The notes below the pieces were generated by a model. It searched no databases. It saw only the letters and a list, made by a program, of their open reading frames with translations, and was not told where the DNA came from. A stretch of 64,000 bases of DNA, from contig NZ_LYXE01000062.1 of NCBI RefSeq assembly GCF_002532075.1, positions 1-64,000 on the forward strand, given 5' to 3'. The translations under genes were made by a program, and so were the position numbers. The stretch comes from Candidatus Chloroploca asiatica (GTDB lineage: Bacteria; Chloroflexota; Chloroflexia; Chloroflexales; Chloroflexaceae). Below, piece after piece: positions 231 to 56,936 of the stretch (positions are counted from its first letter, which is position 1; each line of letters begins with the position of its first letter).

Positions 231-1481
231 CCTCACCGGCTTTCACTTTTTGATTCGAGGTGGACAGGATGCCTTCCTTCGGTATGATATGCGTGCCAGC
301 ACCAATCACACTGTATGGAGGATTCACGATGTCCACCTCGACCCGGTATGATACCATAGCCGCTCGCTTGACCACTGCGCTGCCTGAACTGCGCCCCCGC
401 TTGCGTGACCCGTTGGCCTGCGTGTTGACGGGGATGAGCCAGTCCGTCGCATCCCATCAGCAACGGGTGGCGGACGCGATGCCCCTCGACACCGCCCAAG
501 CGAGCAAGATCCAACGCTTCCGCCGCCTGTTGGAGAATGCCAAACTCACCGCCGAGGACATCTATCAGCCGATCGTGCAAGCGGCGTTGACGGGCTTGCG
601 CCGCCAGCGCGTCCACCTGCTGCTGGATCGGGTGGTGCTCACCGGCGACCAAAACGTTCTGGTCGCCAGCCTGGGCTTTCGCCGCCGCTCTCTCCCTTTG
701 GTCTGGCGCATCCTGGACCACGGAGGCTCCAGTGCGTTGGCCGATCAGCACGCCGTGTTGACTGCCGCTGTGGCCCTCCTGCCCGCCGAGGTGCGCGTGC
801 TGGTCCATGCCGACAGCGAATTTCGCTCGCAGGCCCTCTTTACCTGGATCCGCAGCCACGGCTGGGACGCCATCCTGGGCATCCGGGGGAACGTGACGGT
901 CACCACCGACCCTGCGCAGGCGGCTCAGGCGTTGCACACCTGGCTGCCGGATCGCGAGACGGTCGTCTACCTGAATCAGGTCTGGCTGACCGAAGACCAG
1001 CACGGCCCGGTGAACGTCCTGGCCTGGTGGGACAAGGACGACCGTGGCGTGCTGACCTGTTACGCCGTGATGACCAACCTGCCCGCGACCTGGCGAACGT
1101 ACCGGATTGGCAGCCGCCGGATGTGGAGTGAGACGATGTTCCGCGACTGGCAAAGTGGGGGCTTTGCATTGGGGAAAACGGCGATCACGGATCATGAGCG
1201 GTTCCATCGGCTGATCATCCTGGTGTGTCTCATCTACCTGTGGTTTGTCAGCCTTGGGCGGTGGCTGGTCAAGCGTGGCTATCGTCACCTCCTCGATACG
1301 GGACCATCCGATGCGTGGCACCGCAGTTTGTTTACGCTGGCCGTCGCATGGCAGAACCGCTGCCGCACCTTCGACCGTCCGCTGGCCGTCTTCTGGTTTG
1401 TGTACCTCTGACCCCACCAGAAAGTGAAAGGTTGGCAATTTGTGTACATATGACACCATAAGAAAGTGAAAGCCGGTGAGG
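231..1481 (+). mobile_element. IS4-like insertion sequence with 19-bp terminal inverted repeats
   Basis: A perfect 19-bp inverted repeat bounds the element: CCTCACCGGCTTTCACTTT at 231-249 and its reverse complement at 1463-1481. A single transposase gene lies between. The right end carries an extra imperfect direct copy of the terminal region (about 1397-1432 against 1440-1474), so the AAAGTGAAAG motif occurs twice there. I see no clear target-site duplication. The left and right flanks do not rejoin into one reading frame, so the site was rearranged after or during insertion. Confidence 0.8.
329..1411 (+). CDS. IS4-family-like DDE transposase
   Basis: Predicted cut-and-paste transposase of about 360 residues. 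The ATG at 329 is preceded by GGAGG at 317-321, so I prefer it to the upstream in-frame ATG at 260. Family-like blocks are visible: LLLDRVVLTGDQ and VLVHADSEFRSQALF supply candidate first and second catalytic Asp residues, and RMWSETMFRDWQSGGF supplies the Glu in an R-x3-E context typical of IS4 elements, although the Lys usually found seven residues after the Glu is Gln here. The gene fills the space between the two terminal inverted repeats and looks intact. The assignment rests on motif pattern only; the exact subgroup is unknown. Confidence 0.8.
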   Translation: MSTSTRYDTIAARLTTALPELRPRLRDPLACVLTGMSQSVASHQQRVADAMPLDTAQASKIQRFRRLLENAKLTAEDIYQPIVQAALTGLRRQRVHLLLDRVVLTGDQNVLVASLGFRRRSLPLVWRILDHGGSSALADQHAVLTAAVALLPAEVRVLVHADSEFRSQALFTWIRSHGWDAILGIRGNVTVTTDPAQAAQALHTWLPDRETVVYLNQVWLTEDQHGPVNVLAWWDKDDRGVLTCYAVMTNLPATWRTYRIGSRRMWSETMFRDWQSGGFALGKTAITDHERFHRLIILVCLIYLWFVSLGRWLVKRGYRHLLDTGPSDAWHRSLFTLAVAWQNRCRTFDRPLAVFWFVYL

Positions 1482-1984: not shown

Positions 1985-2345
1985 AAACACAGGGGCACCC
2001 CTGCTGCGCCCGCCGTGGCACCCCGAGCGGAGCGAGGGGTCTTCCATGCGCCGCAGTGAAGATTCCTCACTGCGTTCGGAATGACATGGATGGCGTTGGC
2101 ATCCCGCTGCGCCCGCCTTGCCACCCCAAGGCATCCTCCGTCACCCCGCCGCGCCCGCCGTGGCACCCCGCCGCACCCGCCGTGGCACCCGCCGCGCCAG
2201 CATTGTCACCCCGAGCGCAGCGAGGGGTCTTCCATGCGCCGCAGTGAAGATTCCTCACTGCGTTCGGAATGACATGGATGGCGTTGGCACCCCGCTGCGC
2301 CCACCTTGTCACCCCGAGCGCAGCGAGGGGTCTTCTATGCACAGC
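1985..2345. repeat. Repeat A cluster 1 (imperfect palindromes)
   Basis: Two full copies (2019-2085, 2205-2274) and one half copy (2307-2341) of an imperfect palindrome of about 68 bp. The left arm reads CACCCCGAGCGCAGCGAGG and the right arm is close to its reverse complement (CTCACTGCGTTCGGAATGAC). Copies are joined by degenerate GCGTTGGCACCCCGCTGCGCC spacers. Apparent reading frames through this unit (with SERSEE- or PERSEG-like peptides) are repeat translations, not genes. Confidence 0.85.
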
Positions 2346-2440
2346 ACGGAAAATTGCCTTTTGTGCATCCTGAGCCAGCAGGCGAAGTCGCGACAGCCAT
2401 TCCCCGCAAAATCTCGTCTTGAACCTTTGCGCCTCTGCGC
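2344..2440. repeat. Repeat E copy 1
   Basis: A segment of about 80 bp starting CACGGAAAATTGCC and ending GTCTTGAACC recurs at about 5077-5157 and 7328-7410. Each copy follows a half copy of repeat A and leads directly into the CTTTGCGCC arm of repeat B. It may be a fragment of an unidentified gene. Confidence 0.7.
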
Positions 2441-2447
2441 CCTTGCG

Positions 2448-2735
2448 TCAAAATGCGCGCCGCACGACCGCTACCACGCGCTCGAGGTCTTCCAGGGTGA
2501 GGTTCGAGCCCGAGGGGAGGCAGAGGCCGTCGCGGAAGAAGCTTTCGGCGACGCTGCCCCCGCTGCGTTCGTAGCGTTCAAAGATGGGCTGGAGGTGCAT
2601 TGGTTTCCACCCTGGGCGCGCTTCGATGTGCTCGGCTTCCAGGGCCACGCGGATTGCCTCGCGATCAGTGCCGCTTTGCGCCGGGTCAATGGTGATCACC
2701 GTGAGCCAGCGCGTGTGCCGCCCCCACGAGGGTGT
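2448..2735 (-). pseudogene. PglE-like aminotransferase, C-terminal fragment 1
   Basis: The minus strand encodes about 90 residues matching the end of a DegT/DnrJ/EryC1/StrS sugar aminotransferase: RWLTVITIDP, then DREAIRVALEAEHIEARP, WKPMHLQPIFERYER and the terminal GLCLPSGSNLT block. No N-terminal or PLP-lysine region is present. The stop codon TGA is supplied by the adjoining repeat B (TTTTGACGC). Nearly identical tails occur at 7431-7722 and 8886-9029, so this is a duplicated 3' fragment. It is not derived from the intact wbpE-like gene at 23-24 kb, whose C-terminus differs. Confidence 0.75.
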
Positions 2736-2905
2736 TTTGACGCCAAGACGCAAGGGCGCAAAGGTTGATTTGAACCTTTGCGCCTTCGCGTCAAAAACAG
2801 CCGGTCCCCCCGCCGCCCACACCAAAAACGCCGGGGCACCCAGGCGAGGCCCTGGCAACACGGCGTTTGATAGACGCCAAGACGCAAAGATATAACATTT
2901 GCGTC
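2736..2905. repeat. Composite of repeats B-C-B
   Basis: Repeat B is an imperfect palindrome of the form TTTTGACGCCAAGACGCAAG ... CCTTTGCGCCTTCGCGTCAAAA. Repeat C lies between two B copies and is itself palindromic (AAAAACGCCGGGGCACCCAG ... CAACACGGCGTTT, about 2815-2870). The same B-C-B order is reused at several places up to 9.9 kb. Confidence 0.75.
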
Positions 2906-2958
2906 TTGGCTCTCAGCTTCGGGCGAGAAGGATCTCGCCAGATCACACGATGCTCTTG

Positions 2959-2964
2959 TATAAT
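2959..2964 (+). promoter_or_regulatory. Candidate -10 box for vapB/vapC-like pair
   Basis: TATAAT occurs 39 bases upstream of the antitoxin ATG. The -35 region is weak, so this is a candidate only. Confidence 0.35.
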
Positions 2965-3002
2965 ACCTGCAACCACACAAGTCAGTGAACAAGAGGCCGC
3001 CG

Positions 3003-3218
3003 ATGCAAGCTTATCGTGTAGAAACGACCATTGCGCCTGATGGCTCAATCAAAATTGTCAATCTCCCCTTTCCGCGTGGCGAAGCCGTTGAAGTCATTAT
3101 CCTGCTGCCAGAATCACGCACGACGACAACTGAGCGCTATCCCCTCCGGGGCACACCAGTTGTCTATCATGCCCCCTTTGAGCCCGTGAGTGAAGATGAC
3201 TGGAGCATCCTTCCATGA
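3003..3218 (+). CDS. Small antitoxin-like protein upstream of PIN toxin
   Basis: Short protein of 71 residues starting MQAYRVETTIAPDGSIKI. The N-terminal third looks like the beta-rich start of small Chloroflexota/cyanobacterial antitoxin partners (a PDG-x-I then LPF-x-x-GE-x-VEVIIL pattern). A GTG at 2985 in frame is an alternative start. Its stop overlaps the ATG of the following PIN gene (ATGA at 3215-3218), the typical arrangement of an antitoxin-toxin operon. Its role, neutralising and probably co-repressing the downstream toxin, is inferred from this arrangement. Confidence 0.65.
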   Translation: MQAYRVETTIAPDGSIKIVNLPFPRGEAVEVIILLPESRTTTTERYPLRGTPVVYHAPFEPVSEDDWSILP

Positions 3219-3706
3219 TCATCCTCGATACGCACATCTGGGTCTGGTGGATCCACCAAGATCAGCAACTCCCAACAGGCTACGAGGAATATATTCGTCA
3301 TCACGAAGCACAAGGTTTGGGCATTAGTGCCATATCCTGTTGGGAAGTTGCTAAATTGGTTGAGTATGGCCGACTGACGCTGCCAATGGGCATCGCGGAT
3401 TGGATGCAACGTGCGCTCTCCTACCCTGGTATGCGCTTGTTACCACTCACACCAGAGATTGCGATTGCGTCTACCCAGTTGCCACCACCTTTTCATAGAG
3501 ACCCTGCCGATCAGCTTATCGTCGCAACAGCTCGTACCTATGATTGTCCATTAGTTTCACTTGATGGCAAGATACGTACATACCCATACGTTCGTACTGA
3601 GCCTCAGAGCAACAGCCCTGCCGATGCCGCAGCAGGCAACATTCATGCGTCGGGACAAGGCTCGGCAGGAACAGCGCATGACACCCATCCTGTGCAACCA
3701 GATTGA
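3215..3706 (+). CDS. VapC-like PIN-domain toxin
   Basis: Predicted PIN-domain ribonuclease of 163 residues. The acidic residues of the fold are present: Asp in MIILDTHIWVWW, Glu in SCWEVAKL, Asp in HRDPADQLIVATAR and Asp in LVSLDGKI. The PIN fold should end near residue 130, but the frame continues for about 30 low-complexity residues (SNSPADAAAGNIHASG), an unusual tail that may come from sequence joined to the gene end during local rearrangement. It is translationally coupled to the small gene before it. Known relatives cleave RNA and are held inactive by the antitoxin. Confidence 0.8.
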   Translation: MIILDTHIWVWWIHQDQQLPTGYEEYIRHHEAQGLGISAISCWEVAKLVEYGRLTLPMGIADWMQRALSYPGMRLLPLTPEIAIASTQLPPPFHRDPADQLIVATARTYDCPLVSLDGKIRTYPYVRTEPQSNSPADAAAGNIHASGQGSAGTAHDTHPVQPD

Positions 3707-3739
3707 TCAAGTTGCACGATGCTCCGTCGCGTGAGGGTA

Positions 3740-3893
3740 AACCTGGGATCCCCGCCACCCACACCAAAAACGCCGTGTCGACTAGGGATGTGCCCTGGCA
3801 ACACGGCGTTTGATAGACGCAAAGACGCAGAGGCGCCAAGATCTTTTTTTACCTTTGCGCCTTCGCGCCTTGGCGTCAAAATGTCCCCCCGCG
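3740..3893. repeat. Composite of repeats C and B
   Basis: Repeat C (about 3745-3812, CCGCCACCCACACCAAAAAC ... ACACGGCGTTTGATAGACGC) runs into a B palindrome (about 3812-3880). The composite ends exactly where a wecA tail fragment begins at its stop codon. Confidence 0.7.
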
Positions 3894-4062
3894 CTACACC
3901 GCGTTGCGCTGACCAACGGTGCGTTCGGTGACGACGACGGTGCGCCACAGCAGGGCGGCGCTCAGCAGCGGGACGAGGCTTGCGGCGATCTCACGGCCAG
4001 GCACGGCACGCATCCAGAGCAGGGCGCGCTTCGATGTGCTCGGCTTCCAGGGCCACGCTGTT
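3894..4062 (-). pseudogene. Chimeric remnant: wecA-like tail joined to pglE-like piece
   Basis: On the minus strand, 3894-4027 encodes the last 40 or so residues of a WecA-like transferase (PLLSAALLWRTVVVTERTVG ... QRNAV stop), nearly the same as the end of the intact gene at 9906 but diverged just upstream (AVPGREIAASL against AVPGSASAASI). Immediately next to it, 4030-4062 matches an internal piece of the pglE-like fragment (VALEAEHIEARPG) in another frame. Two unrelated gene tails have been joined without a gap, evidence of illegitimate recombination in this region. Confidence 0.7.
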
Positions 4063-4318
4063 TTGACGCCAAGACGCAAGGGCGCAAAGATCTTTTTTTA
4101 CCTTTGCGCCTTCGCGCCTTTGCGTCAAAATGACAGGTGTTCCGGAGGGTTTAACTCAGAGGCACGGAGACGCGGAGGCGCAGAGATTCAAGAGGAGCCA
4201 CGATCTTCCGGTTGTTTGTTGGAAACCAGGGCCTGCAAATCTCGCGTCAACGGAACGAAACGCCGAGCGGATCGCAATGCATCATCAGCACTTTGTTGCG
4301 TAGATAAAGCCCAAGGCA
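4060..4318. repeat. Repeat B copies and repeat F copy 1
   Basis: A B palindrome (about 4063-4130) is followed by a half B starting GTTCCGGAGGGTTTAACTC and then by repeat F (about 4196-4318; it contains GTTGGAAACCAGGGC and CGTCAACGGAACGAAACGCC). F recurs at about 6716-6838, again between B and A, so a block of about 180 bp was duplicated. F may be a gene fragment, but I do not recognise it. Confidence 0.65.
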
Positions 4319-5076
4319 TCCTCCTTGTCACCCCGATGCGCCAGCCATGTCACCCCGAGCGGAGCGAGGGGTCTTCCATGCGTAGCAATGAAGATTCCTC
4401 ACGCCGTTCGGAATGACATGGATGGCGTTGGTAGCCCCGCTGCGCCAGCCATGTCACCCCAAGGCATCCTCCGCCACCCCAAGGCATCCTCCGTGTCATC
4501 CCGCCGCGCCCGCCGTGTCACCCCGCCGCGCCAGCCATGTCACCCCGAGCGCAGCGAGGGGTCTTCCATGCGCCGCAGGGAAGATTCCTCACTCCGTTCG
4601 GAATGACATGGATGGCGTTGGTAGCCCGCTGCGCCCGCCGTGGGCCCCCATCGCGCACCCCTGCCCCCCACTGCGCCAGCACTGTCACCCCGAGCGCAGC
4701 GAGGGGTCTTCCATGCGTAGCGAGGGGGCTTCGATGCGCCGCAGGGAAGATTCCTCACTCCGTTCGGAATGACATGGCTGGCGTTGGTAGCCCGCTGCGC
4801 CCGCCGTGGCCCCCCATCGCGCACCCCTGCCCCCCGCCGCGCCAACAATGTCACCCCGAGCGCAGCGAGGGGTCTTCCATGCGCAGCGAGGGGTCTTCCA
4901 TGCGCCGCAGGGAAGATTCCTCACTCCGTTCGGAATGACATGGATGGCGTTGGCACCCCGCTGCGCCCGCCGTGGCACCCCAAGGCATCCTCCTTGTCAC
5001 CCCGCCGCACCAGCCATGTCACCCCGCTGCGCCAGCCATGTCACCCCGAGCGCAGCGAGGGGTCTTTTATGCGCGG
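4318..5076. repeat. Repeat A cluster 2
   Basis: Four full or expanded palindromes (4349-4418, 4539-4608, 4683-4773, 4849-4940) and a half copy (5038-5072). The copies at 4683 and 4849 have an internal duplication of the GCGAGGGGTCTTCCATGCG loop segment. Spacers consist of CACCCCGCCGCGCC-type units and CCAAGGCATCCTCC units. No gene is supported here. Confidence 0.85.
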
Positions 5077-5384
5077 CACGGAAACTTGCCTTTGGTGCAT
5101 CCTGAGCCAGCAGGCGAAGTCGCGACAGCCATGCCCCGCAAAATCGCGTCTTGAACCTTTGCGCCGTTGCGCCTTGGCGTCAAGATCACCGCCGTTCCCC
5201 CCGCCACCCACACCAAAAACGCCGTGTTGCCCAGGGACTTGCCCTGGCAACACGGCGTTCCGGAGGTTGTAACGCAGAGGCGCGGAGTTTCCTCTTGAAT
5301 CTCTGCGCCTTGGCGCCTTGGCGTCAAAATGCGCACCGCACCACCACCGGCACGCGCTCCAGGTCGGCACCATATGCTGCCAGA
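5077..5384. repeat. Repeats E, B, C and a short pglE-like scrap
   Basis: Repeat E copy 2 (5077-5157) leads into a half B, repeat C (about 5197-5265) and another B (about 5268-5330). The piece at about 5330-5382 reads on the minus strand as a degraded pglE tail (DLERVPVVVRCA). The whole block repeats the order seen at 2.3-2.75 kb. Confidence 0.6.
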
Positions 5385-5885
5385 TCAAGCGTCTTTCTCA
5401 CCTGCCAATTTCAGCGTCTCCTCGTATAAATCAAGCGCAAGATGAAACCCGCATCGCTGTAAGTCATCTAAGAGTGGCTGAACTGCTACAATCAGACCGG
5501 CCTTTTTTGCCCTTATCAGGATACCAATAACTCCTACAACGCTCACTTCCAAACGCTCGGCGAACAGACGCGCCTGGCGATCATCCAGCCCAGCCACATA
5601 GCCCACATGCGACCTGGCATAGGCTATCACAGCTTGCTCACCTGGCCCCAGCCGATTAGGTGGTAAGGCAGCTTGTTCACTGTGATCAACAGAGACCGCC
5701 AGCATCCAATTGAACTTGCCAGGATTGATCGTATCTGGCCGCATCAAGCGCCCCATGTCCAACTCTAAGCAAACCAACTCCGGCACATAGACCGGTTCAA
5801 AAAGAGCGTGAAGCAGACCGATCTGACCGATGCGATCCAGATACAGCAACAGGGTGGTATCGCAAACCAAAGGCCGTCTACTCAT
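5385..5885 (-). CDS. DUF3368-like PIN nuclease, toxin of UPF0175 pair
   Basis: Protein of 166 residues starting MSRRPLVCDTTLLLYLDRIG, with the early Asp and hydrophobic strand of a PIN-like fold, then LGPGEQAVIAYA and AGLDDRQARLFAERL, where the Glu and Asp pair lies in the place expected for DUF3368 proteins, and VVGVIGILIRAKKAGLI in the second half. It starts inside the end of the preceding UPF0175 gene (8-base overlap), the standard arrangement of this toxin-antitoxin type. The expected role is an RNA-cutting toxin silenced by its partner. It appears complete. Confidence 0.75.
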   Translation of the reverse strand: MSRRPLVCDTTLLLYLDRIGQIGLLHALFEPVYVPELVCLELDMGRLMRPDTINPGKFNWMLAVSVDHSEQAALPPNRLGPGEQAVIAYARSHVGYVAGLDDRQARLFAERLEVSVVGVIGILIRAKKAGLIVAVQPLLDDLQRCGFHLALDLYEETLKLAGEKDA

Positions 5886-6132
5886 CGGCTAACTCGCGGT
5901 GCAGATCTTCCCCCGTGATTGCCGACACAGGAATATCGTAGTCAGCACACAAATCCAAAAACATCATGCGTGGCACACCTGCCATATGGGCCGCAGCACC
6001 GGATGAGAGTTTACCTATACGAAAGAGCATCAGCGCCGCGTACAGCCGCATATCACGCGCCAGTTCTTCCGGTGTCCGATTAAGCATCTGCGGAATATCC
6101 CCTGGCAACTGTATTTCCACTACATCGTACAT
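5878..6132 (-). CDS. UPF0175-family antitoxin
   Basis: Protein of 84 residues starting MYDVVEIQLPGDIPQML. I chose the ATG at 6132 because it has GAGGAG just upstream and because UPF0175 proteins start in this way; a longer in-frame extension to 6213 has no good ribosome site. The order ELARDMRLYAALMLFRIGKL then AAHMAGVPRMMFLDLC is the family's predicted helix-turn-helix-like core, normally used to bind the operon's own promoter and the PIN partner. It is coupled by overlap to the DUF3368-like gene downstream. Confidence 0.75.
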   Translation of the reverse strand: MYDVVEIQLPGDIPQMLNRTPEELARDMRLYAALMLFRIGKLSSGAAAHMAGVPRMMFLDLCADYDIPVSAITGEDLHRELADE

Positions 6133-6425
6133 CGTTGTCTCCTCTGCCAAGCGATGGCCCTGCCCATCCATCGTGTAGCCTATCGCCCACTGCCGAGCAA
6201 ACGGGCGCGACATGTGCGTGTTTACGCTTTTCCTGGGAATGAGGGCAGCTTGCCCTCATACGCACGACGAGGGCGGGACGCCCTCGCGCCAAGGCTTGTA
6301 GGTTCCCCCAAGCTGGCACCGGGGCGGCACACCCTACACCTAAACATCCGTCAGCAAGTGCGATAGCAAAGCTATGGGGGTAGTGTACCGCACCACGAGC
6401 AGAAAATCCACCCGTCGCGCAAGGC
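6133..6425. other. Intergenic stretch, no gene seen
   Basis: No convincing gene. It holds the leader of the UPF0175 operon and a GC-rich inverted element around 6240-6290 (GAGGGCAGCTTGCCCTC and GAGGGCGGGACGCCCTC), two short hairpins in tandem that may end or insulate transcription. Confidence 0.5.
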
Positions 6426-6838
6426 CGACGCCACGGCGTTCCGGAGGTTGTAACGCAGAGGCACAGAGACGCGGAGGCGCAGCGTTTCTTTTTCGACCTT
6501 CGCGCCTTGGCGCCTTTGCGTCAAGATCACAGCCGTTCCCCCGCCACCCACACCACAAACGCCGTGGCACCCAGGCGAGGCCTTGGTACCACGGCGTTTT
6601 GGGGTGTACCACAGAGGCACGGAGACGCAGAGTTTCTTTCTTTACCTTTGCGCCTTTGCGTCAAGATGATAGGCGTTCCGGAGGTTGTAACGCAGAGGCG
6701 CGGAGGCGCGGAGGTTCAAGAGGAATCCGGTTCTTTGTTGGAAACCAGGGCTTGCACATCGCGCGTCAACGGAACGAAACGCCGAGCGGATGGCAATGCA
6801 TCATCAGCACGTTGTTGCGTAGATAAAGCCCAAGGCAT
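6426..6838. repeat. Composite of repeats B-C-B and repeat F copy 2
   Basis: A B palindrome (about 6435-6535) is followed by C (about 6540-6600), B (about 6610-6668), a half B (6670-6716) and F (6716-6838). The block B-F-A is the same order and nearly the same sequence as 4138-4330, a segmental duplication. Confidence 0.7.
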
Positions 6839-7327
6839 CCGCCGTGTCACCCGCCGCGCCCGCCATGTCACCCCGCTGCGCTCTCCCTGTCACCCCACTG
6901 CGCCAGCACTGTCACCCCGAGCGCAGCGAGGGGTCTTCCATGCGCCGCAGGGAAGATTCCTCACTGCGTTCGGAATGACATGGATGGCGTTGGTAGCCCG
7001 CTGCGCCAGCCATGTCACCCCGCCGCGCCCGCCGTGGCCCCCCATCGCGCACCCCTGCCCCCCGCTGCGCCAGCACTGTCACCCCGAGCGCAGCGAGGGG
7101 TCTTCGATGCGTAGCAATGAAGATTCCTCACTCCGTTCGGAATGACATGGATGGCGTTGGCACCCCCGCTGCGCCCGCCGTGGCACCCCAAGGCATCCTC
7201 CTTGTCACCCCGCCGCGCCAGCAATGTCACCCCGCTGCGCCAGCCATGTCACCCCGAGCGTAGCGAGGGGTCTTCCATGCGCCGCAATGAAGATTCCTCA
7301 CTCCGTTCGGAATGACATGGCTGGCGG
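6838..7327. repeat. Repeat A cluster 3
   Basis: Three full palindromes at 6910-6980, 7077-7147 and 7247-7317, in the same orientation as the other clusters and separated by the same CCGCTGCGCC-type spacers. No coding function is supported. Confidence 0.85.
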
Positions 7328-45290: not shown

Positions 45291-45794
45291 CTACAACGGC
45301 CTGATCTGATTCACTTTGAGCTCAACGCGGATCTGGCGATCGCCAAGCAGATCAATTAAGACGCGCACGCGTTCGCTATCGCGGAGGCGGGCGTCAAAGA
45401 TCGCCTCGTACTGGGCAAACGGGCCGTGTTCAATGACAACGCGGTCGCCGGGGCGCAACTGAAAAAAGGTCTCGCCGCCAGCGGCGTTGATTTCAGTGAG
45501 GCGTTGATCAATCAGTTGGAGCAACGCATCATCAACGACCGCTGGCTCGCCGCCAAAACTGACGAGGCCAACGGCAAAGGGCAGATAGCGAAAGACCGAC
45601 GGGCCAAACTCACCGAGATCAGCCTTGACAAAGACATACGAGGGAAAGAAGGGGCGGATCGTGCGCGAACGCGGATTCACCGGCTTTACCACCAGGTGCG
45701 GGTAAAAGACCGGCACGCCCCGCTGCTCAAGCTGCTCGGTGATCAGCGCCTCTTTGCGGGCCTTTGTCTGCAATGCGTACCAGTGTGCTGCCAT
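45291..45794 (-). CDS. NusG/RfaH-like transcription antiterminator
   Basis: Protein of 167 residues from the ATG at 45794, which has AGAGGT upstream. NGN domain: HWYALQTKARKEALITEQLE, VPVFYPHLVVKPVNPRSR, PFFPSYVFVKADLG and VGLVSFGGEPAVVDD. KOW part from about residue 110: LRPGDRVVIEHGPFAQYEAI. Specialised NusG paralogues (RfaH, LoaP and similar) bind RNA polymerase and let it read through long polysaccharide operons. This one is at the head of about 36 kb of genes on the same strand, which fits that role. It is not the housekeeping NusG, whose secE/rplK neighbours are absent. Confidence 0.85.
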   Translation of the reverse strand: MAAHWYALQTKARKEALITEQLEQRGVPVFYPHLVVKPVNPRSRTIRPFFPSYVFVKADLGEFGPSVFRYLPFAVGLVSFGGEPAVVDDALLQLIDQRLTEINAAGGETFFQLRPGDRVVIEHGPFAQYEAIFDARLRDSERVRVLIDLLGDRQIRVELKVNQIRPL

Positions 45795-45808
45795 AGACCT
45801 CTTGCCAC

Positions 45809-46045
45809 CTACACCCCGCCACACGCCAACTCAGTGTCATCGTTCGGATGACCCTCTTCAGGTAGCGCGTGGTTGACCCGCCGATTCCACGACTGGATCA
45901 GCGTCACCATCAAATCGTCCACCGTCGTACACCGGACTGGGGGGGCTTTCCCTTCGGGATCAACTAGCCACAATACAAACTGTGGCCCCCCGGTCTCCTC
46001 ATCTTCCGAGCTCTGCATGAGCAACAGCCAGCGCAACTGTGCCAT
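45809..46045 (-). CDS. Small conserved-looking protein of unknown function
   Basis: Frame of 78 codons upstream of the NusG-like gene, ending 14 bases before it. It starts MAQLRWLLLMQSSEDEETGG and has WLVDPEGKAPPVRCTT and VTLIQSWNRRVNHALPEEG. The ATG at 46045 has no strong ribosome site. Composition looks coding: no low-complexity runs, and an acidic N-terminal turn. I do not recognise the family. It may be a leader gene of the polysaccharide operon. Moderate confidence that it is a real gene. Confidence 0.5.
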   Translation of the reverse strand: MAQLRWLLLMQSSEDEETGGPQFVLWLVDPEGKAPPVRCTTVDDLMVTLIQSWNRRVNHALPEEGHPNDDTELACGGV

Positions 46046-46317
46046 GAGTTATCCCTTGCGTAGTTTTGGTTTATAGGGTTGCGGCGCGCAAGCGCGCCGC
46101 AACCCTATGCATAGTTACCTTGCGGCGCTTGCGCCGCAACCCTATGCATAGGTACGGGTGCGGCGTAAAAGCTTCCCAGAAGCTTTTAGTATCTGGGCAC
46201 GCTCCGCCATTTCGACATCGCCCTACGATGCCGAGACAAGCGCTATCCTAGCAAGAGACCGTCACGTTACCTGGCAATTCCCTGACAACCGTGGGGACAT
46301 AACCACCGTCTGAACAC
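46046..46317. promoter_or_regulatory. Hairpin-rich leader of the polysaccharide locus
   Basis: Holds a 17-bp perfect hairpin with a 2-base loop (46073-46108, core TAGGGTTGCGGCGCGC), a second hairpin (46120-46139, TTGCGGCGCTTGCGCCGCAA), direct repeats of GCGCCGCAACCCTATGCATA at about 46094 and 46132, and a TAAAAGCTTC..GAAGCTTTTA hairpin at 46166-46188 that probably belongs to the end of one neighbouring transcript. It separates the NusG-headed locus from the SARP gene 3' end. Confidence 0.5.
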
Positions 46318-49300
46318 CTACCGTCCGCCAACCCGTGCGCTCGCTTTGAGGTCACCGCCTCGCGTCACAACCACAATGCCCTCTTCACGCAACAGCGCGA
46401 GGTCACGTTTGATCGTGCGCACATTGACCTCCAGGACACGCGCAAGCTCCTCAAGGGTCGCAAAACATCCTTGAGCGATGGCCTCACCAGAGAGGCGGAG
46501 CAGGCAGGTATGGCGGCGGGCAATGCGGTCAACAGGATCATCCGGGGCCTCAATTGTCCAGACGACCGGGTGCAACTCATCAGGTTGCAGGGGGCGTCCG
46601 GTTGGTGCATGTCGTAGGGGGAGCCAGGCGAGACAGCGCGGGCGCTGGACAACCGGCTGGCAAGCTAGCTCCAGGTCAAATGGTTGCAGAGCAAGCAATG
46701 TACGACGTACCTCAGGCTCTTTATTATACCCCAATTCAGTAAGCAATGTGTCAAGAGCATGGGCACGCACGGTTGCTGCCTCGGTGGGGGCGTGGCACGC
46801 GGCGAGCACGCCAGCGATCCGCCAGCGGGTCATTGCCGGGGACCAGTGCGGGAGGCTCGGCTCAACGAGGTTGGCCGCAGCGCGGGCATAGGCAAGGGCG
46901 CGGTCAGGCTCACCTGCTGCGGCATAGACTTCGGCAGCCAGCACGATGCCCTCAACTGGCAGCGGCGGGATACCAGATGCATCAAGCGGCAGCAAGGTCG
47001 CATAGGCTTCGCATGTCTGGCCCAGCCCCAACTGTGCCGCCGCGACCAGGGTCTCCTGAAATGCCGCACCAGGCAAGCTAGCCAGGCGACGGGTCAACGC
47101 AACCCCCTCGCGGGCCAGCGCGAGCGCCTGCTCATACTCGTGCAACGCCAGGAGGTTCAGGGTCATACTGGCAAGCAACAGCTTGAGCGGGGCAAGCAAG
47201 CCGGCCTCGCGTACCAACGGCAACGTCGTCGCCCCAAGCAAACGGCTCTCTTCAAACGCCCCAACCAGGGCAAGCGTATGCACAAGCCGGGCCCGCACCT
47301 CCAACTCAACGCGCTGATCGTCAGCCAGTTGCGCCTGGAAGAGCACCGCACGCAACAGCGCCAGCCCCTCGCCATACCGGCGCTGGCTCAGACAAACCAA
47401 TGCCTCCACCAGCAACGCCCGCGACGCCAGCAGTGGTATCGTCGCCAGCGCAGCAGCATCAACCAGGTGCGCCATCACCGCAGCCGCCTCTTCAACCCGG
47501 CTTGCCGCAAGCAAAGCGGCAACGAGGTTCAAGCGCGCTTCGGTCAAGCTCGTGGATTGAGCATGGAGGCCATTGTTGGAACGCACGCTGGCCCCGCATC
47601 CAACCTCCATCGCCGCAAGCTCAACAGCCCGCTGCGCATAGCGCACGCCCTCATCATACGCCTCACTGATCGCCAACACCTCCGCCAGCGCCAGTGACGC
47701 CTGCGCCTCAAGCCGCGTCAACCCGGCGCAACGCGCCTGGGCCAACGCCTCACGGAGCACCCGCTCGCCCTCCGCAGGATCAACCAGCGTCCCGCGGGCC
47801 AACCCGACGCAGATCAACGCCTCGATCTGCCAATCCTCCCGCCCGGCAGCCTGTACCTCTTCAAGGAGCAGGTCTGGTGCCGAAGCACCCCTCGACGTGA
47901 AGGTGGGATACGCTCTTGGGGCGAGGCCCCCCACCCCCAACCCCTCCCCCACGAGGGGGGCGGGGAGTGAGGACAGCGCCGCCGCACGCGGCGGCTCCCC
48001 GCCTCTCTCACCAGGAGAGAGGCGGGGCAGGGGGGGAGAAGGGGAAAAAGCCATCAAGCGCGCCACGTCCCAGCGTCGGGCATGGCCGACGGGGAGGTTC
48101 AGCGCTTGCACGGCGGCGCTGGCAAAGCCAAGGCTGCGTTGGGCCAGGGGCAACGACCCGGTGGCAAGGGCGGCATACGTTGCATCGAGGGCCTCGTCGA
48201 GCACGGCATCCCACAGGTGGCCTAGGGCGCTATGGGTAAGTCGCTCGAAGCGCAGCGCCACCGGACGATCCAGCGCAGGGCCAAGCGCCGTGGCGAGTTG
48301 GGCGTGCAAGGTACGCCGCGCTTCAGGGTCCAGGCGCTCAAGCAGATACACCCCGAGGTCAGGGTGGACCAGACGCAGATACTGGCCCCGTTCGATCAGC
48401 ACCCCGGCGATCAGCAGGTCAGACAGCAGGGCCACCCGCTGCCCCGGCTCAGGCCAGAGCGCCTCGATCAGGTTCTCATCGGCAGGGCGCCCAAGCAGCG
48501 CAAAGGTACACGCCATCATCCATGCCGCAGGCGCAAGCCGTGCGACTTGCCAGCGCATCAACGCGGGCATCGTTGTGGGGAGGGGAAAATCCGGCCTGAT
48601 GAGGCCCCATCCCGTCGGTGGGTCATACCAGAGCACCTGATGTTCATAGAGAACGTGGATCAGGCCCAGGAGCAACCCGGGATGACCACCACTGCTCGTG
48701 AGCAAGCGGTCGCGCAATGCAGGGGCAATGCGGCCACCTACGGCAGCCTGGGCCAGGCGCATCGTCGCCTGGGGGTCAAGCGGCTCAAGGGCCAGCAGGC
48801 GCAGGGGCAAAAGGATCGGTCGGCGCATCGTCGCCACAGGGAAACTCGCCTCACCGGGGGGCGCCGTCAAGACCACGCAGAGGGCTCGTGGGCCGGCGAG
48901 CAAGCGGATCACGAGTTGTCGCAGCGCCTGATGATCACCAGGAAAATCATCGATCACGAGCAGCAAGGCACCCTGTGCAGCCACGTGATCGAGCAACGCG
49001 ACCAGGGCCTGCAGCGGATCAAAACGAAAGCCCTGCGCACGACGCAGCGGCTGCGGCACACGCTCGGGCAGCATCTCGCGCAGACGGGGCATCTGGCGAC
49101 AGAGCAGATGCCACTGCTGGTCATCAAGACGCGCACAGGCGGCCCGCAGATAGACACGAGCCGTACGGCCAGCGCCGAGCACCCCATCTTCAAAGAGTTC
49201 CCAGATATCGTGCGCTCCCGTACGAGGCGTCAACCAGAGGACAGTCCACGAAGCGCGCAGGCGCACCTGGGCGGCAAACTCCTGCACCAGACGCGTCTTG

Positions 49301-50211
49301 CCTAGCCCACTCGCACCCTCGATCAACACCGCCGCAGGGCGGCGAACCAGCGCCTGCTGCCACGCCTCAGACAACCCCTCAAGTTCACGCACCCGCCCGA
49401 TCAAAGGCAACGCCGCTGCGAGGCCACTCTCGACCTCAACCGGCAACGCCAGCGGCAACATCGGCAGTTCAGCAAGGGGAGCTATCGGGGCGGAGGCCAC
49501 GGGCGGAGGCGTCCGTGCCAGCAAGCGAGCCAATTCATCCAGCGCAGGCCAGGTATGCTGTTGCCACTCGGCACGCAGCATCGAGCGGGCCTGACTCACC
49601 TGATCCAGGGCAGCCTCGTGCTCACCGAGGTCAAACAACGCCTGCACCGCCGCAACGTGGGCCTGCTCCTCCCACGGCTCCTCTATCACCCAGCGGCGAG
49701 CGGTGCGCAGCAAAAGCATCGCCGAACCACTGGCACGAGCGAGCGTCACCAGACGATGGAGCACCTCGAGGTAACGGACTTGCGTCACACTCGCCTCGTG
49801 GGCAGCCCAGGCATCAGCGAGCGAACCAAGGAACGGCCCCGTATAGAGCGTCATCGCATGCTCAAGCTCGGCCTGGGTCGCATCGGGGCGGCTCTGGTGC
49901 ATAAAGGCATGGTAATCGCTGAGCACCACCAGGTGCGGATCAAGGCCGAGGTGGTACTCGGAAGTGACGAGGATCGGACCAAGGGCTTGCCGAAGGTAAT
50001 GCCTTGCCGAGCGCAGGCGGCGCTGAACATGCGCCGGTTCCAGCGTCGGAAAGAGATCGTCACCGAGTAATGTCAGAGGGATCGGGGAAGGGAACGCACA
50101 GACGAGACGCGCCAGCAGAACCTTCGCCATACGGGTCGGCACCTGAACCAACTCACCATCGAGTTCAACCCGCCACTGTCCAAACATCCACAGACGCAAC
50201 GTATTATGCAT
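46318..50211 (-). CDS. Giant SARP-type regulator: BTAD, AAA ATPase, TPR, C-terminal HTH
   Basis: Protein of 1297 residues. Residues 1-95 resemble the winged helix of SARP regulators (LRLWMFGQWRVELDG, RLRSARHYLRQALGP) and 95-240 the BTAD helices. The ATPase follows (PLIGRVRELEGL; Walker A GASGLGKT near residue 300; LLLVIDDFPGD as Walker B). Then come helical TPR-like repeats, and at the end (from about 1210) a block with RHTCLLRLSGEAIAQGCFAT, LEELARVLEVNVRTIKRDLA and a G-rich tail that resembles the helix-turn-helix of DUF1670 proteins. A repeat of about 45 codons is inserted in frame near residues 720-765. Likely a signal-responsive activator; targets unknown. Confidence 0.75.
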   Translation of the reverse strand: MHNTLRLWMFGQWRVELDGELVQVPTRMAKVLLARLVCAFPSPIPLTLLGDDLFPTLEPAHVQRRLRSARHYLRQALGPILVTSEYHLGLDPHLVVLSDYHAFMHQSRPDATQAELEHAMTLYTGPFLGSLADAWAAHEASVTQVRYLEVLHRLVTLARASGSAMLLLRTARRWVIEEPWEEQAHVAAVQALFDLGEHEAALDQVSQARSMLRAEWQQHTWPALDELARLLARTPPPVASAPIAPLAELPMLPLALPVEVESGLAAALPLIGRVRELEGLSEAWQQALVRRPAAVLIEGASGLGKTRLVQEFAAQVRLRASWTVLWLTPRTGAHDIWELFEDGVLGAGRTARVYLRAACARLDDQQWHLLCRQMPRLREMLPERVPQPLRRAQGFRFDPLQALVALLDHVAAQGALLLVIDDFPGDHQALRQLVIRLLAGPRALCVVLTAPPGEASFPVATMRRPILLPLRLLALEPLDPQATMRLAQAAVGGRIAPALRDRLLTSSGGHPGLLLGLIHVLYEHQVLWYDPPTGWGLIRPDFPLPTTMPALMRWQVARLAPAAWMMACTFALLGRPADENLIEALWPEPGQRVALLSDLLIAGVLIERGQYLRLVHPDLGVYLLERLDPEARRTLHAQLATALGPALDRPVALRFERLTHSALGHLWDAVLDEALDATYAALATGSLPLAQRSLGFASAAVQALNLPVGHARRWDVARLMAFSPSPPLPRLSPGERGGEPPRAAALSSLPAPLVGEGLGVGGLAPRAYPTFTSRGASAPDLLLEEVQAAGREDWQIEALICVGLARGTLVDPAEGERVLREALAQARCAGLTRLEAQASLALAEVLAISEAYDEGVRYAQRAVELAAMEVGCGASVRSNNGLHAQSTSLTEARLNLVAALLAASRVEEAAAVMAHLVDAAALATIPLLASRALLVEALVCLSQRRYGEGLALLRAVLFQAQLADDQRVELEVRARLVHTLALVGAFEESRLLGATTLPLVREAGLLAPLKLLLASMTLNLLALHEYEQALALAREGVALTRRLASLPGAAFQETLVAAAQLGLGQTCEAYATLLPLDASGIPPLPVEGIVLAAEVYAAAGEPDRALAYARAAANLVEPSLPHWSPAMTRWRIAGVLAACHAPTEAATVRAHALDTLLTELGYNKEPEVRRTLLALQPFDLELACQPVVQRPRCLAWLPLRHAPTGRPLQPDELHPVVWTIEAPDDPVDRIARRHTCLLRLSGEAIAQGCFATLEELARVLEVNVRTIKRDLALLREEGIVVVTRGGDLKASARVGGR
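47915..48052 (-). repeat. In-frame palindromic repeat inside the SARP gene
   Basis: A stretch of about 138 bp, unlike the rest of the gene: CCCCCACCCCCAACCCCTCC-type and CCGCCTCTCTCACCAGGAGA-type segments that fold as hairpins (GCCTCTCTCACCAGGAGAGA at 48002). It keeps the frame and encodes a Pro/Gly-rich piece with SPSPPLPRLSPGERGG and SLPAPLVGEGLGVGG, peptides typical of translated bacterial interspersed repeats. Confidence 0.75.
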
Positions 50212-50276: not shown

Positions 50277-50301
50277 CATAAAGCTTCCCGGAAGCTTTAT
50301 G
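50277..50301. repeat. AAGCTTCCC hairpin upstream of SARP and sortase genes
   Basis: CATAAAGCTTCC and its complement around a single C. The same core occurs at 46166-46188 on the other side of the SARP gene. TACAAT at about 50303-50308 could be a -10 box for the sortase gene. Confidence 0.45.
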
Positions 50302-50435
50302 CTACAATAGACGCGAGGCATTATACCAGAAAATCGTACCCTGCTTCACAAAGTGTGAACAAACTCACCCGTTTTCTCCGCAGCTTTTCCATATCTTAAG
50401 TAAAAGTTAAGTAATCTGGGAATCCGAGGGAATCT

Positions 50436-51566
50436 ATGATGAAACATACGTACATAAGCGTCATAGCATTGTTCACACTGCTCGCGCTGTTTGGGGCAAT
50501 GCCAGCGCAGGCGCAGCAACGCGAACGCTGTTTCGCCGCGACGGGCTATTGCATTACCGGGCCGATTCAGCGTTTCTGGGAACAACATGGTGGCCTGGCG
50601 GTCTTTGGGTACCCGCTGACGCCATTGCAAACCGAGGTGATCGAGGGGCGGCGCGTGCAAGTGCAATGGTTCGAGCGGCACCGGCTCGAACTGCACCCCG
50701 AGCTTGCCTGGCCCTACACCGTGCAACTAGGCCGCCTGGGCATTGAACGGCTCGCCCGTGACGGGCGCAGCCCGGTGCTACCGGTCGCGGGGCAAGCAGC
50801 GGCGGGTTGCCGCTTCTTTGGCGACACAGGGCTCAACGTATGCGGCGACATCCTGCGCGCCTGGTCAGCGAACGGCATCGAAAACGACGGGCGCGCCGGG
50901 TACAGCGTCGCCGAAAGCCTGGCGCTCTGGGGGTTGCCAATTACCGAAGCCCGCCCGGAGACCTTGGCCGACGGACGCGAATACATCGTGCAATGGTTCG
51001 AACGAGCACGGCTCGAAATCCACCCCGAGCAACCGGCACAGTTTCGGGTGCTAGGCGGTCTACTGGGGGCCGAACTAAAACCGCAGGCCCAAGCTGCACC
51101 GCGGGCCGTACGCGCCGTACCGCAGCGGATCGTCGCCCCAGCGCAAGGCATCGATAGCCCCATCGTCTCAGTTGGCCTTGATCCCCAGGGCGTGCCCGTC
51201 GTACCCAGGCACGACGTCGGCTGGTACAACCTCAGCGCCACCCCCGGCGAAGGCGAAAACATCGTGCTCTGGGGACACGTCCTGCGCTTCCGGGACACAC
51301 CATCAATTCCGGCCCCCTTCGCCCGCATCAAAGACCTCGTGCCAGGGGACATCATCACCTTGCACACCAGCACCGGCCAGCGCTTCGACTACATTGTCAG
51401 CCGCCAGATCTGGGTCAAACCGGAAGAAGTGCAGTACATCCTGCCGCAACAACAAGAACTGCTGACCCTCGTCTCGTGTATCGGCGACCAGGTGATCGTC
51501 CAGAACGAAGTGGTAGACATGACCCACCGCCTCATCACCATCGCCAGACCTGTGACGGGGAGATAA
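50436..51566 (+). CDS. Secreted sortase with two tandem FGYPLT-type modules
   Basis: Protein of 376 residues. A signal peptide ends near AMPAQAQQ. Residues 30-105 and 118-215 are two copies of a module found in two other proteins here (CFAATGYCITGPIQRFWEQ, GGLAVFGYPLT, WFERHRLELHPE; second copy GREYIVQWFERARLEIHPE). The sortase domain fills the C-terminus, with His 281 in LWGHV, Cys 348 in LVSCIG and Arg 365 in THRLITIARP. It should act on the outer face, cutting and joining surface proteins, but no LPxTG-type substrate is visible nearby. GAGGG precedes the ATG. Confidence 0.85.
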   Translation: MMKHTYISVIALFTLLALFGAMPAQAQQRERCFAATGYCITGPIQRFWEQHGGLAVFGYPLTPLQTEVIEGRRVQVQWFERHRLELHPELAWPYTVQLGRLGIERLARDGRSPVLPVAGQAAAGCRFFGDTGLNVCGDILRAWSANGIENDGRAGYSVAESLALWGLPITEARPETLADGREYIVQWFERARLEIHPEQPAQFRVLGGLLGAELKPQAQAAPRAVRAVPQRIVAPAQGIDSPIVSVGLDPQGVPVVPRHDVGWYNLSATPGEGENIVLWGHVLRFRDTPSIPAPFARIKDLVPGDIITLHTSTGQRFDYIVSRQIWVKPEEVQYILPQQQELLTLVSCIGDQVIVQNEVVDMTHRLITIARPVTGR

Positions 51567-56369: not shown

Positions 56370-56936
56370 GGGGCACGGGCGGCGCCGTACGGGCACGGCG
56401 CCGCCGTGCCCCAACACGGAAGGGCACGGGCAAGCCGTGCCCCTACCACGCGCCCCCGTGCCCCACCTCGCCCGTGTCCCACCAACGCAGGGCACGGGCA
56501 AGCCGTGCCCCTACCACGCGCCCCCGTGCCCCACCACGCCCGTGTGCCACCACGCCCGTGCCCCACCAACGCAGGGCACGGGCAAGCCGTGCCCCACCAC
56601 GCCCGTGCCCCACCTCGCCCGTGTGCCACCAACGCAGGGCACGGGCAAGCCGTGCCCCTACCACGCGCCCCCGTGCCCCACCTCGCCCGTGTGCCACCAA
56701 CGCAGGGCACGGGCAAGCCGTGCCCCTACCACGCGCCCCCGTGCCCCACCTCGCCCGTGTGCCACCAACGCAGGGCACGGGCAAGCCGTGCCCCTACCAC
56801 GCGCCCCCGTGCCCCACCTCGCCCGTGTGCCACCAACGCAGGGCACGGGCAAGCCGTGCCCCTACCACGCGCCCCCGTGCCCCACCACGCCCGTGCCCCA
56901 CCAACGCAGGGCACGGGCAAGCCGTGCCCCTACAGC
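56370..56936. repeat. Minisatellite, 68-bp period, about eight copies
   Basis: Units carry GCAGGGCACGGGCAAGCCGT (a GGGCACGGG..CCGTGCCC palindrome), CCCCTACCACGCGCCCCCGT and CACCTCGCCCGTGTGCCACC. The last five are spaced exactly 68 bp (about 56629, 56697, 56765, 56833, 56901); earlier ones vary. It fills the whole space between the 3' ends of the hydrolase gene and the histidine kinase gene. Long open frames across it are repeat translations. Confidence 0.85.

Follow-up and report, generated by a model that had tools for sequence, protein, structure and literature searches.

A SARP-type STAND regulator of Candidatus Chloroploca asiatica with DNA-binding-type domains predicted at both ends

What use might a large regulator make of a DNA-binding-type domain at each of its two ends? 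The question is raised by a long open reading frame (ORF) in the first 64,000 nucleotides of contig NZ_LYXE01000062.1 of Candidatus Chloroploca asiatica (the stretch analyzed here, hereafter the window), for which an initial annotation had proposed an N-terminal SARP winged helix with BTAD, a C-terminal helix-turn-helix (HTH) block like that of DUF1670 proteins, and an AAA ATPase with TPRs between them. Pfam, sequence profiles, and predicted structures bear out two DNA-binding-type ends in a STAND-like protein of 1297 residues (Table 1). The protein is read here as an AfsR-like STAND transcription regulator with a second, C-terminal DNA-binding-type domain, an explanation that, taken whole with its proposed working, is fairly probable.

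Domain architecture of the regulator

The SARP end is supported by sequence and by predicted fold alike. BTAD scores 46.2 bits against a Pfam cut-off of 22.1, and the winged-helix region (residues 1–100) of the window protein draws no Pfam match. A five-sequence profile of residues 1–265 aligns with AfsR over residues 5–246 (E 1.4e-22) and with EmbR over residues 3–245 (E 8.2e-17), and the structure predicted for the same residues (predicted local distance difference test, pLDDT, 86.6) shows an OmpR-type winged helix and, after it, a helical BTAD, matching AfsR with Z 20.3 over 234 residues (root-mean-square deviation, rmsd, 4.4). Predicted residues 3–92 alone match VanR (Z 9.3, 86 residues, rmsd 1.7). 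The winged helix, whose absence from the predicted structure was to have counted against the initial annotation, is therefore present, as is the BTAD that it had placed after it. Mapped by eye, AfsR residues P79, R87, and R94 are retained as P59, R67, and R74, and T88 corresponds to S68.

The AAA ATPase expected between the two ends is found as an AAA_16 NTPase with an intact Walker A motif, and all 13 family members checked have this motif. The expected TPRs appear as TPR-like repeats in the predicted model and through TPR models in relatives; in the window protein itself, the Pfam scan gave no match to a TPR model. Residues 785–1297, predicted from six sequences (mean pLDDT 76.3), form helical repeats followed by the C-terminal domain (C-domain), in which strands at 1193–1199 and 1213–1218 precede the three helices of the HTH, and helical-repeat proteins are among the matches listed by Foldseek for this model.

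All Pfam matches at the C-terminus of the window protein fall within its last 60 residues, where HTH_DeoR passes its cut-off (21.7 bits against 21), HTH_11 falls narrowly short (24.7 against 25), and DUF1670 (PF07900) stays below (20.8 against 25). DUF1670 exceeds the cut-off of 25 in four of the five full-length relatives scanned (L088, 30.8 bits; L093, 37.0; L097, 34.2; L101, 42.1), and the fifth, L039, misses it at 23.3 bits. Coverage of the 220-position DUF1670 profile is limited to positions 88–141 in the window protein and to 25–142 at its widest in the relatives scanned, which is not most of the profile. The best solved relatives of the C-terminal HTH by sequence profile are a biotin-repressor-family regulator (E 0.0033) and NiaR (E 0.0057). 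The DUF1670-like C-terminal HTH of the initial annotation thus stands, and two of the checks that it had named, a domain search and a structure prediction, came out in favor of the two-ended layout. For an anti-phage STAND reading, which was set aside, PADLOC yielded a single weak match (0.00038), in which a WYL model covers the C-terminal HTH.

Conservation and distribution of the C-terminal domain

Mean pairwise identity, calculated for 13 representatives of a 19-row alignment after removal of six near-copies, is 37% in the winged helix, 38% in BTAD, 36% in residues 265–450, 31% in residues 450–710, and 24% in the TPR part, and reaches 52% in the C-domain, the highest value among the regions compared. 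The third helix reaches 59% in the C-domain and 44% in the SARP end; for the short Walker A stretch, the value is 70%. The C-domain is thus not a decaying tail, and either a shared DNA site or a shared protein partner could explain its conservation.

A search with the last 108 residues against 301 genomes of the phylum (threshold E 1e-5) gave 27 matches in 18 genomes, 19 of them in open frames longer than 1200 residues. The remaining eight comprise five in frames of 260–286 residues, of which two were scanned, L094 and L106, both DUF1670 proteins, and three whose frames are cut or broken. A further pattern-based contig scan gave at least six extra loci, one being the gene of congener G001 again. 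When profiles of both ends were run over the fetched ORFs of at least 250 residues, a SARP end was found in all 23 C-domain ORFs longer than 1200 residues (22 distinct genes, since L036 and L113 are one), a count in which six ORFs (window, L113 and its copy L036, L108, L109, and L111) belong to the SARP training alignment and 17 do not, one of the latter, L037, being a 91%-identical orthologue, and in which the C-domain profile was scored on many of the rows that had trained it. The C-domain occurs without a SARP end in six ORFs, namely, L094 and L106 as short DUF1670 proteins and four frames that are cut or broken (L091, L098, L107, and L112), and the SARP end occurs without the C-domain in 20 ORFs.

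On a tree of 42 rows built from 720 residues from the SARP start, with the C-domain excluded, presence of the C-domain requires two changes, against a shuffle mean of 14.2 and with none of 500 shuffles as low. This one-clade clustering fits one old Chloroflexota clade with the C-domain and one loss in the sample; repeated fusion of the C-domain is disfavored, since the tree requires only two changes. In L049, which is nested in the C-domain clade, no C-domain was found by eye in its end or in the next 400 bases. The two-ended layout recurs across one phylum, and a second, diverged two-ended regulator of 1216 residues is encoded in the same genome as the window (G000:C9 54417–58067; L039 4417–8067), where its neighbors are a chromate transporter gene and a large ORF whose start looks signal-like (secretion judged by eye). 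Another arrangement is seen in genus g20, in which the C-domain regulator lies head to head with a 1049-aa SARP gene that has no C-domain at six of six fetched loci (L097, L099, L100, L102, L103, and L104). Large SARPs with a C-terminal HTH are apparently a recurring variant undescribed so far, no description having been found in the literature searched, which covered few subscription papers.

How the two ends may work

AfsR molecules sit side by side on 11-bp direct repeats and engage sigma region 4, and AfsR is inhibited by its own nucleotide-binding oligomerization domain (NOD) and TPR parts and released by ATP (PMC10936776). An AfsR-like ATP switch is likely in the window regulator because the domain order is the same and the Walker A is intact. 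In the working that we infer, the NTPase and TPR parts would keep the protein closed without inducer, and inducer on the TPRs together with ATP on the NTPase would open it. The opened SARP end would then occupy 11-bp direct repeats, for which a candidate lies before the sortase gene, and contact RNA polymerase, and the C-terminal HTH would make a second DNA contact, either near that promoter or far from it, acting as a tether or bridge. The looping or bridging of two sites by both ends at once, as initially suggested, is a possible but hypothetical outcome. A fuller version, in which the SARP end recognizes direct repeats particular to each gene, the DUF1670-like end recognizes a clade-wide site, ATP gates the bridge, and DUF1670 is itself a DNA-binding domain, is unlikely.

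The candidate operator is a direct repeat of 7-4-7 form with an 11-bp period, a form shared by the PimR boxes (PMC5930380). The repeat precedes the sortase gene in three of three congeners. Places matching the pattern TTAAGNANNNNTTAAGNA number two, two, and one in these genomes, and each genome has one of them at the spot before the sortase gene. Runs of at least eight identical bases at 11-base spacing number three in the 64-kb window, one of them at the candidate operator. A scan of G009, a genome of another genus, found a single 6-base run at 11-base spacing; it also misses the imperfect repeat of the sisters and so carries no weight either way. A second kind of site, the palindrome AAAGCTTCYGGGAAGCTTT, lies at 46168–46186 and 50280–50298; it has five distinct places in its own genome, two of which flank the regulator gene, and elsewhere it occurs at one place in G001 and at none in G002 and G009. 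As a bridged pair of sites, it was rejected, being absent from the aligned intergenic stretches of both sisters and thus not conserved.

Two other divisions of labor have been weighed. The C-terminal HTH may be a protein-contact or self-locking module, which would cap the SARP end or dock on RNA polymerase or a partner and leave the SARP end alone to bind DNA. This is somewhat unlikely: conservation extends beyond the HTH to the entire C-domain, including the β hairpin (52%), the last 62 residues carry a net charge of just +2, and conservation above that of the SARP end would suit an invariant partner no less than an invariant site, but the third helix, the most conserved helix of the C-domain, bears an RTIKRD pattern of the kind typical for DeoR/HTH_11 domains that read DNA. 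In the other division, DNA would be read mainly by the C-terminal HTH, and the SARP end would have turned, in this lineage, into a regulatory or polymerase-contact part, which is very unlikely. The prediction of the winged helix is of high confidence, this domain is found in 23 of 23 C-domain ORFs, and the SARP third helix still has 44% mean pairwise identity across the family, although Pfam misses the winged helix of the window protein, the C-domain is more conserved than the SARP end, and several AfsR DNA-contact residues are altered.

The AfsR-like, two-ended reading remains the preferred one, and several observations weigh against it or limit its support. By eye, residues through which AfsR contacts DNA or sigma are changed (Q48 to M28, W74 to F54, S91 to H71, R92 to Y72, K95 to Q75, and E76/E77 to T56/L57), so that the DNA sequence recognized and the sigma contact probably differ from those of AfsR. 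The C-terminal HTH is modeled with middling confidence (pLDDT 60–84 in 10-residue blocks, below 50 in the last 11 residues). The search for the candidate operator was post hoc, the second heptamer is TTAAGCA in both sisters, the three congeners with the 7-4-7 repeat are close relatives and not independent, and no good promoter element could be placed beside it. The intergenic stretch between the sortase and regulator genes gives 15 overlapping direct-repeat hits (0 of 500 shuffles as many), but the downstream intergenic stretch is also repeat-rich (7 hits, 4 of 500 shuffles as many), and these counts were set aside as support because overlaps and the palindrome inflate them in both stretches. 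In the tree, the deep order is unsure, with 13 of 39 inner branches open, long branches meeting, and near-copies favoring clustering. Surface-protein neighbors are not enriched: among loci with the C-domain, 4 of 18 have a neighboring ORF with a C-terminal [YF]LP motif, as do 2 of 14 SARP loci that lack the C-domain. Near-copies were omitted from both sets (4 of 22 distinct C-domain genes, L099, L100, L102, and L104; of the 20 genes lacking the C-domain, the six 1049-aa genes of one genus). A surface-protein regulon was rejected for want of enrichment over this control.

Surrounding locus, in-frame repeat, and known systems

Table 1. Features of the regulator and its surroundings (window positions, except for the last five rows, which use positions within each locus).
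Feature	Positions	Strand	Basis or remark
Regulator ORF, 1297 aa, ATG start	46318..50211	-	SARP end first, then NTPase, linker derived from the repeat, and TPR-like repeats; DUF1670-like HTH last
N-terminal winged helix, residues 1-102	49906..50211	-	Profile and predicted structure
BTAD, residues 106-228	49528..49896	-	Pfam 7.7e-12
AAA_16 NTPase, residues 269-440	48892..49407	-	Pfam 9.2e-10
Walker A GASGLGKT, residues 299-306; Walker-B-like LLLVIDD, starting at residue 416			Within AAA_16 NTPase
In-frame palindromic repeat element (putative linker), residues ~720-778	47878..48054	-	
TPR-like helical repeats, residues 785-1180	46672..47859	-	Model, and TPR models in relatives
DUF1670-like C-domain (β hairpin and HTH), residues 1195-1286	46354..46629	-	
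C-domain HTH helices, residues 1229-1246, 1253-1260, 1264-1276			Predicted model
Sortase gene, divergent	50436..51566	+	Pfam Sortase 9e-18
NusG-like gene, head of downstream polysaccharide cluster	45291..45824	-	Pfam NusG 5.8e-14
TATAAT, possible -10 of regulator gene	50320..50325	-	By eye; identical in 3/3 congeners
Candidate SARP operator TTAAGTA-AAAG-TTAAGTA (7-4-7, 11-bp period), before sortase gene	50396..50413	+	Post hoc lead
Other long frame with the repeat, L084	3-2408	-	
Other long frame with the repeat, L085	3-2435	-	
Other long frame with the repeat, L124	204-2336	-	
Other long frame with the repeat, L125	415-2886		
Other long frame with the repeat, L132	591-3017		

On the sortase side, the regulator gene is also accompanied by genes for a response regulator, an amine-oxidase-like protein, and a glycoside-hydrolase-like protein, and on the other side by a 78-aa ORF, the NusG-like gene, and then a sugar-nucleotide and polysaccharide cluster. 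The gene order is retained in two congeners, whose orthologues of the regulator have 1297 and 1388 residues, and control of envelope or exopolysaccharide genes (the sortase gene and the polysaccharide cluster) is plausible from position. In G009, a 60%-identical sortase lies beside a broken regulator copy with internal stops (L038, G009:C473, 3069–5197), and no C-domain was found in the stretch holding that copy. Several neighbors of C-domain members look secreted by eye; the neighbor ORFs L089 4273–5517 and L105 898–3186 resemble spurious antisense frames. Between the regulator gene and the 78-aa ORF, at 46046–46166, lie GC-rich repeats around CTATGCATAGGGT whose copy number varies among the three congeners, and elsewhere in the window (2142–7224 and 56435–56854) short direct repeats occur in several copies each, as units of the TGTCACCCC type (22-base spacing) and CCGTGCCCC (21-base spacing).

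The initial annotation had overlooked that residues ~720–778 are an in-frame palindromic repeat element, which is GC-rich (171-base RNA fold z −2.94) and matches four other places in its own genome over ~40 bases. Its 19-base core (up to two mismatches) has 6, 20, and 5 copies in G000 (the genome of the window), G001, and G002, against 0, 0, and 5 for the backward control, so that the G002 count is no higher than its control. The G001 protein is 91 residues longer, the entire gain lying inside the repeat stretch with the frame intact, and its 51- and 47-base repeats are spaced by 45, 129, and 150 bases, each a multiple of three; in G002, the stretch has the same length as in the window and a different sequence. 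Family members outside the genus have, by eye, ordinary helical-repeat-like sequence at this place, which together with the in-frame growth in G001 points to an amplifying repeat retained in frame as an extensible linker joining the NTPase and TPR halves. The same repeat occurs inside other long frames of Chloroploca genomes, in varied frames and on either strand, including a Peptidase_C25 protein (L085) whose look-alikes in two sister genomes (L125 and L132) also contain a copy, and many copies lie outside long frames. In-frame palindromic elements are known from Rickettsia, and the Chloroploca repeat is reminiscent of them.

Among known systems, the MalT/LAL regulators resemble the window regulator in their STAND NTPase, TPRs, and C-terminal HTH but differ in that their HTH is of the LuxR type and they have no SARP end, whereas that of the window regulator is DeoR/HTH_11-like and is combined with a SARP end. 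AfsR of Streptomyces coelicolor, a large SARP of the STAND class, has the same order of winged helix, BTAD, nucleotide-binding domain, and TPRs but is 993 residues long and ends at the TPR domain without a C-terminal HTH (PMC10936776). The SARP-LAL regulators PimR, SanG, and FilR share the SARP N-terminus and a large ATP-binding C-terminal half and, according to two papers, lack the C-terminal HTH of LAL regulators (PMC5930380; PMC10972967), whereas the window protein has an HTH of another family at 1229–1286. Stand-alone DUF1670 proteins (L094 and L106) have 266–278 residues and the full or near-full profile; the C-domain of the relatives matches its front part, and the window regulator has only that front part, ending a STAND protein. 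The name DUF1670 was not found in the literature searched, most subscription papers lying outside the search, and the two-ended regulators would give a first functional handle on this domain. Relatives such as AfsR and MalT have a DNA-binding domain at one end, the N-terminus in AfsR and the C-terminus in MalT, whereas the clade described here has both ends occupied. With one loss in the sample, it would allow the coupling between NTPase opening and DNA binding to be tested directly, and likewise whether STAND regulators can bridge DNA.

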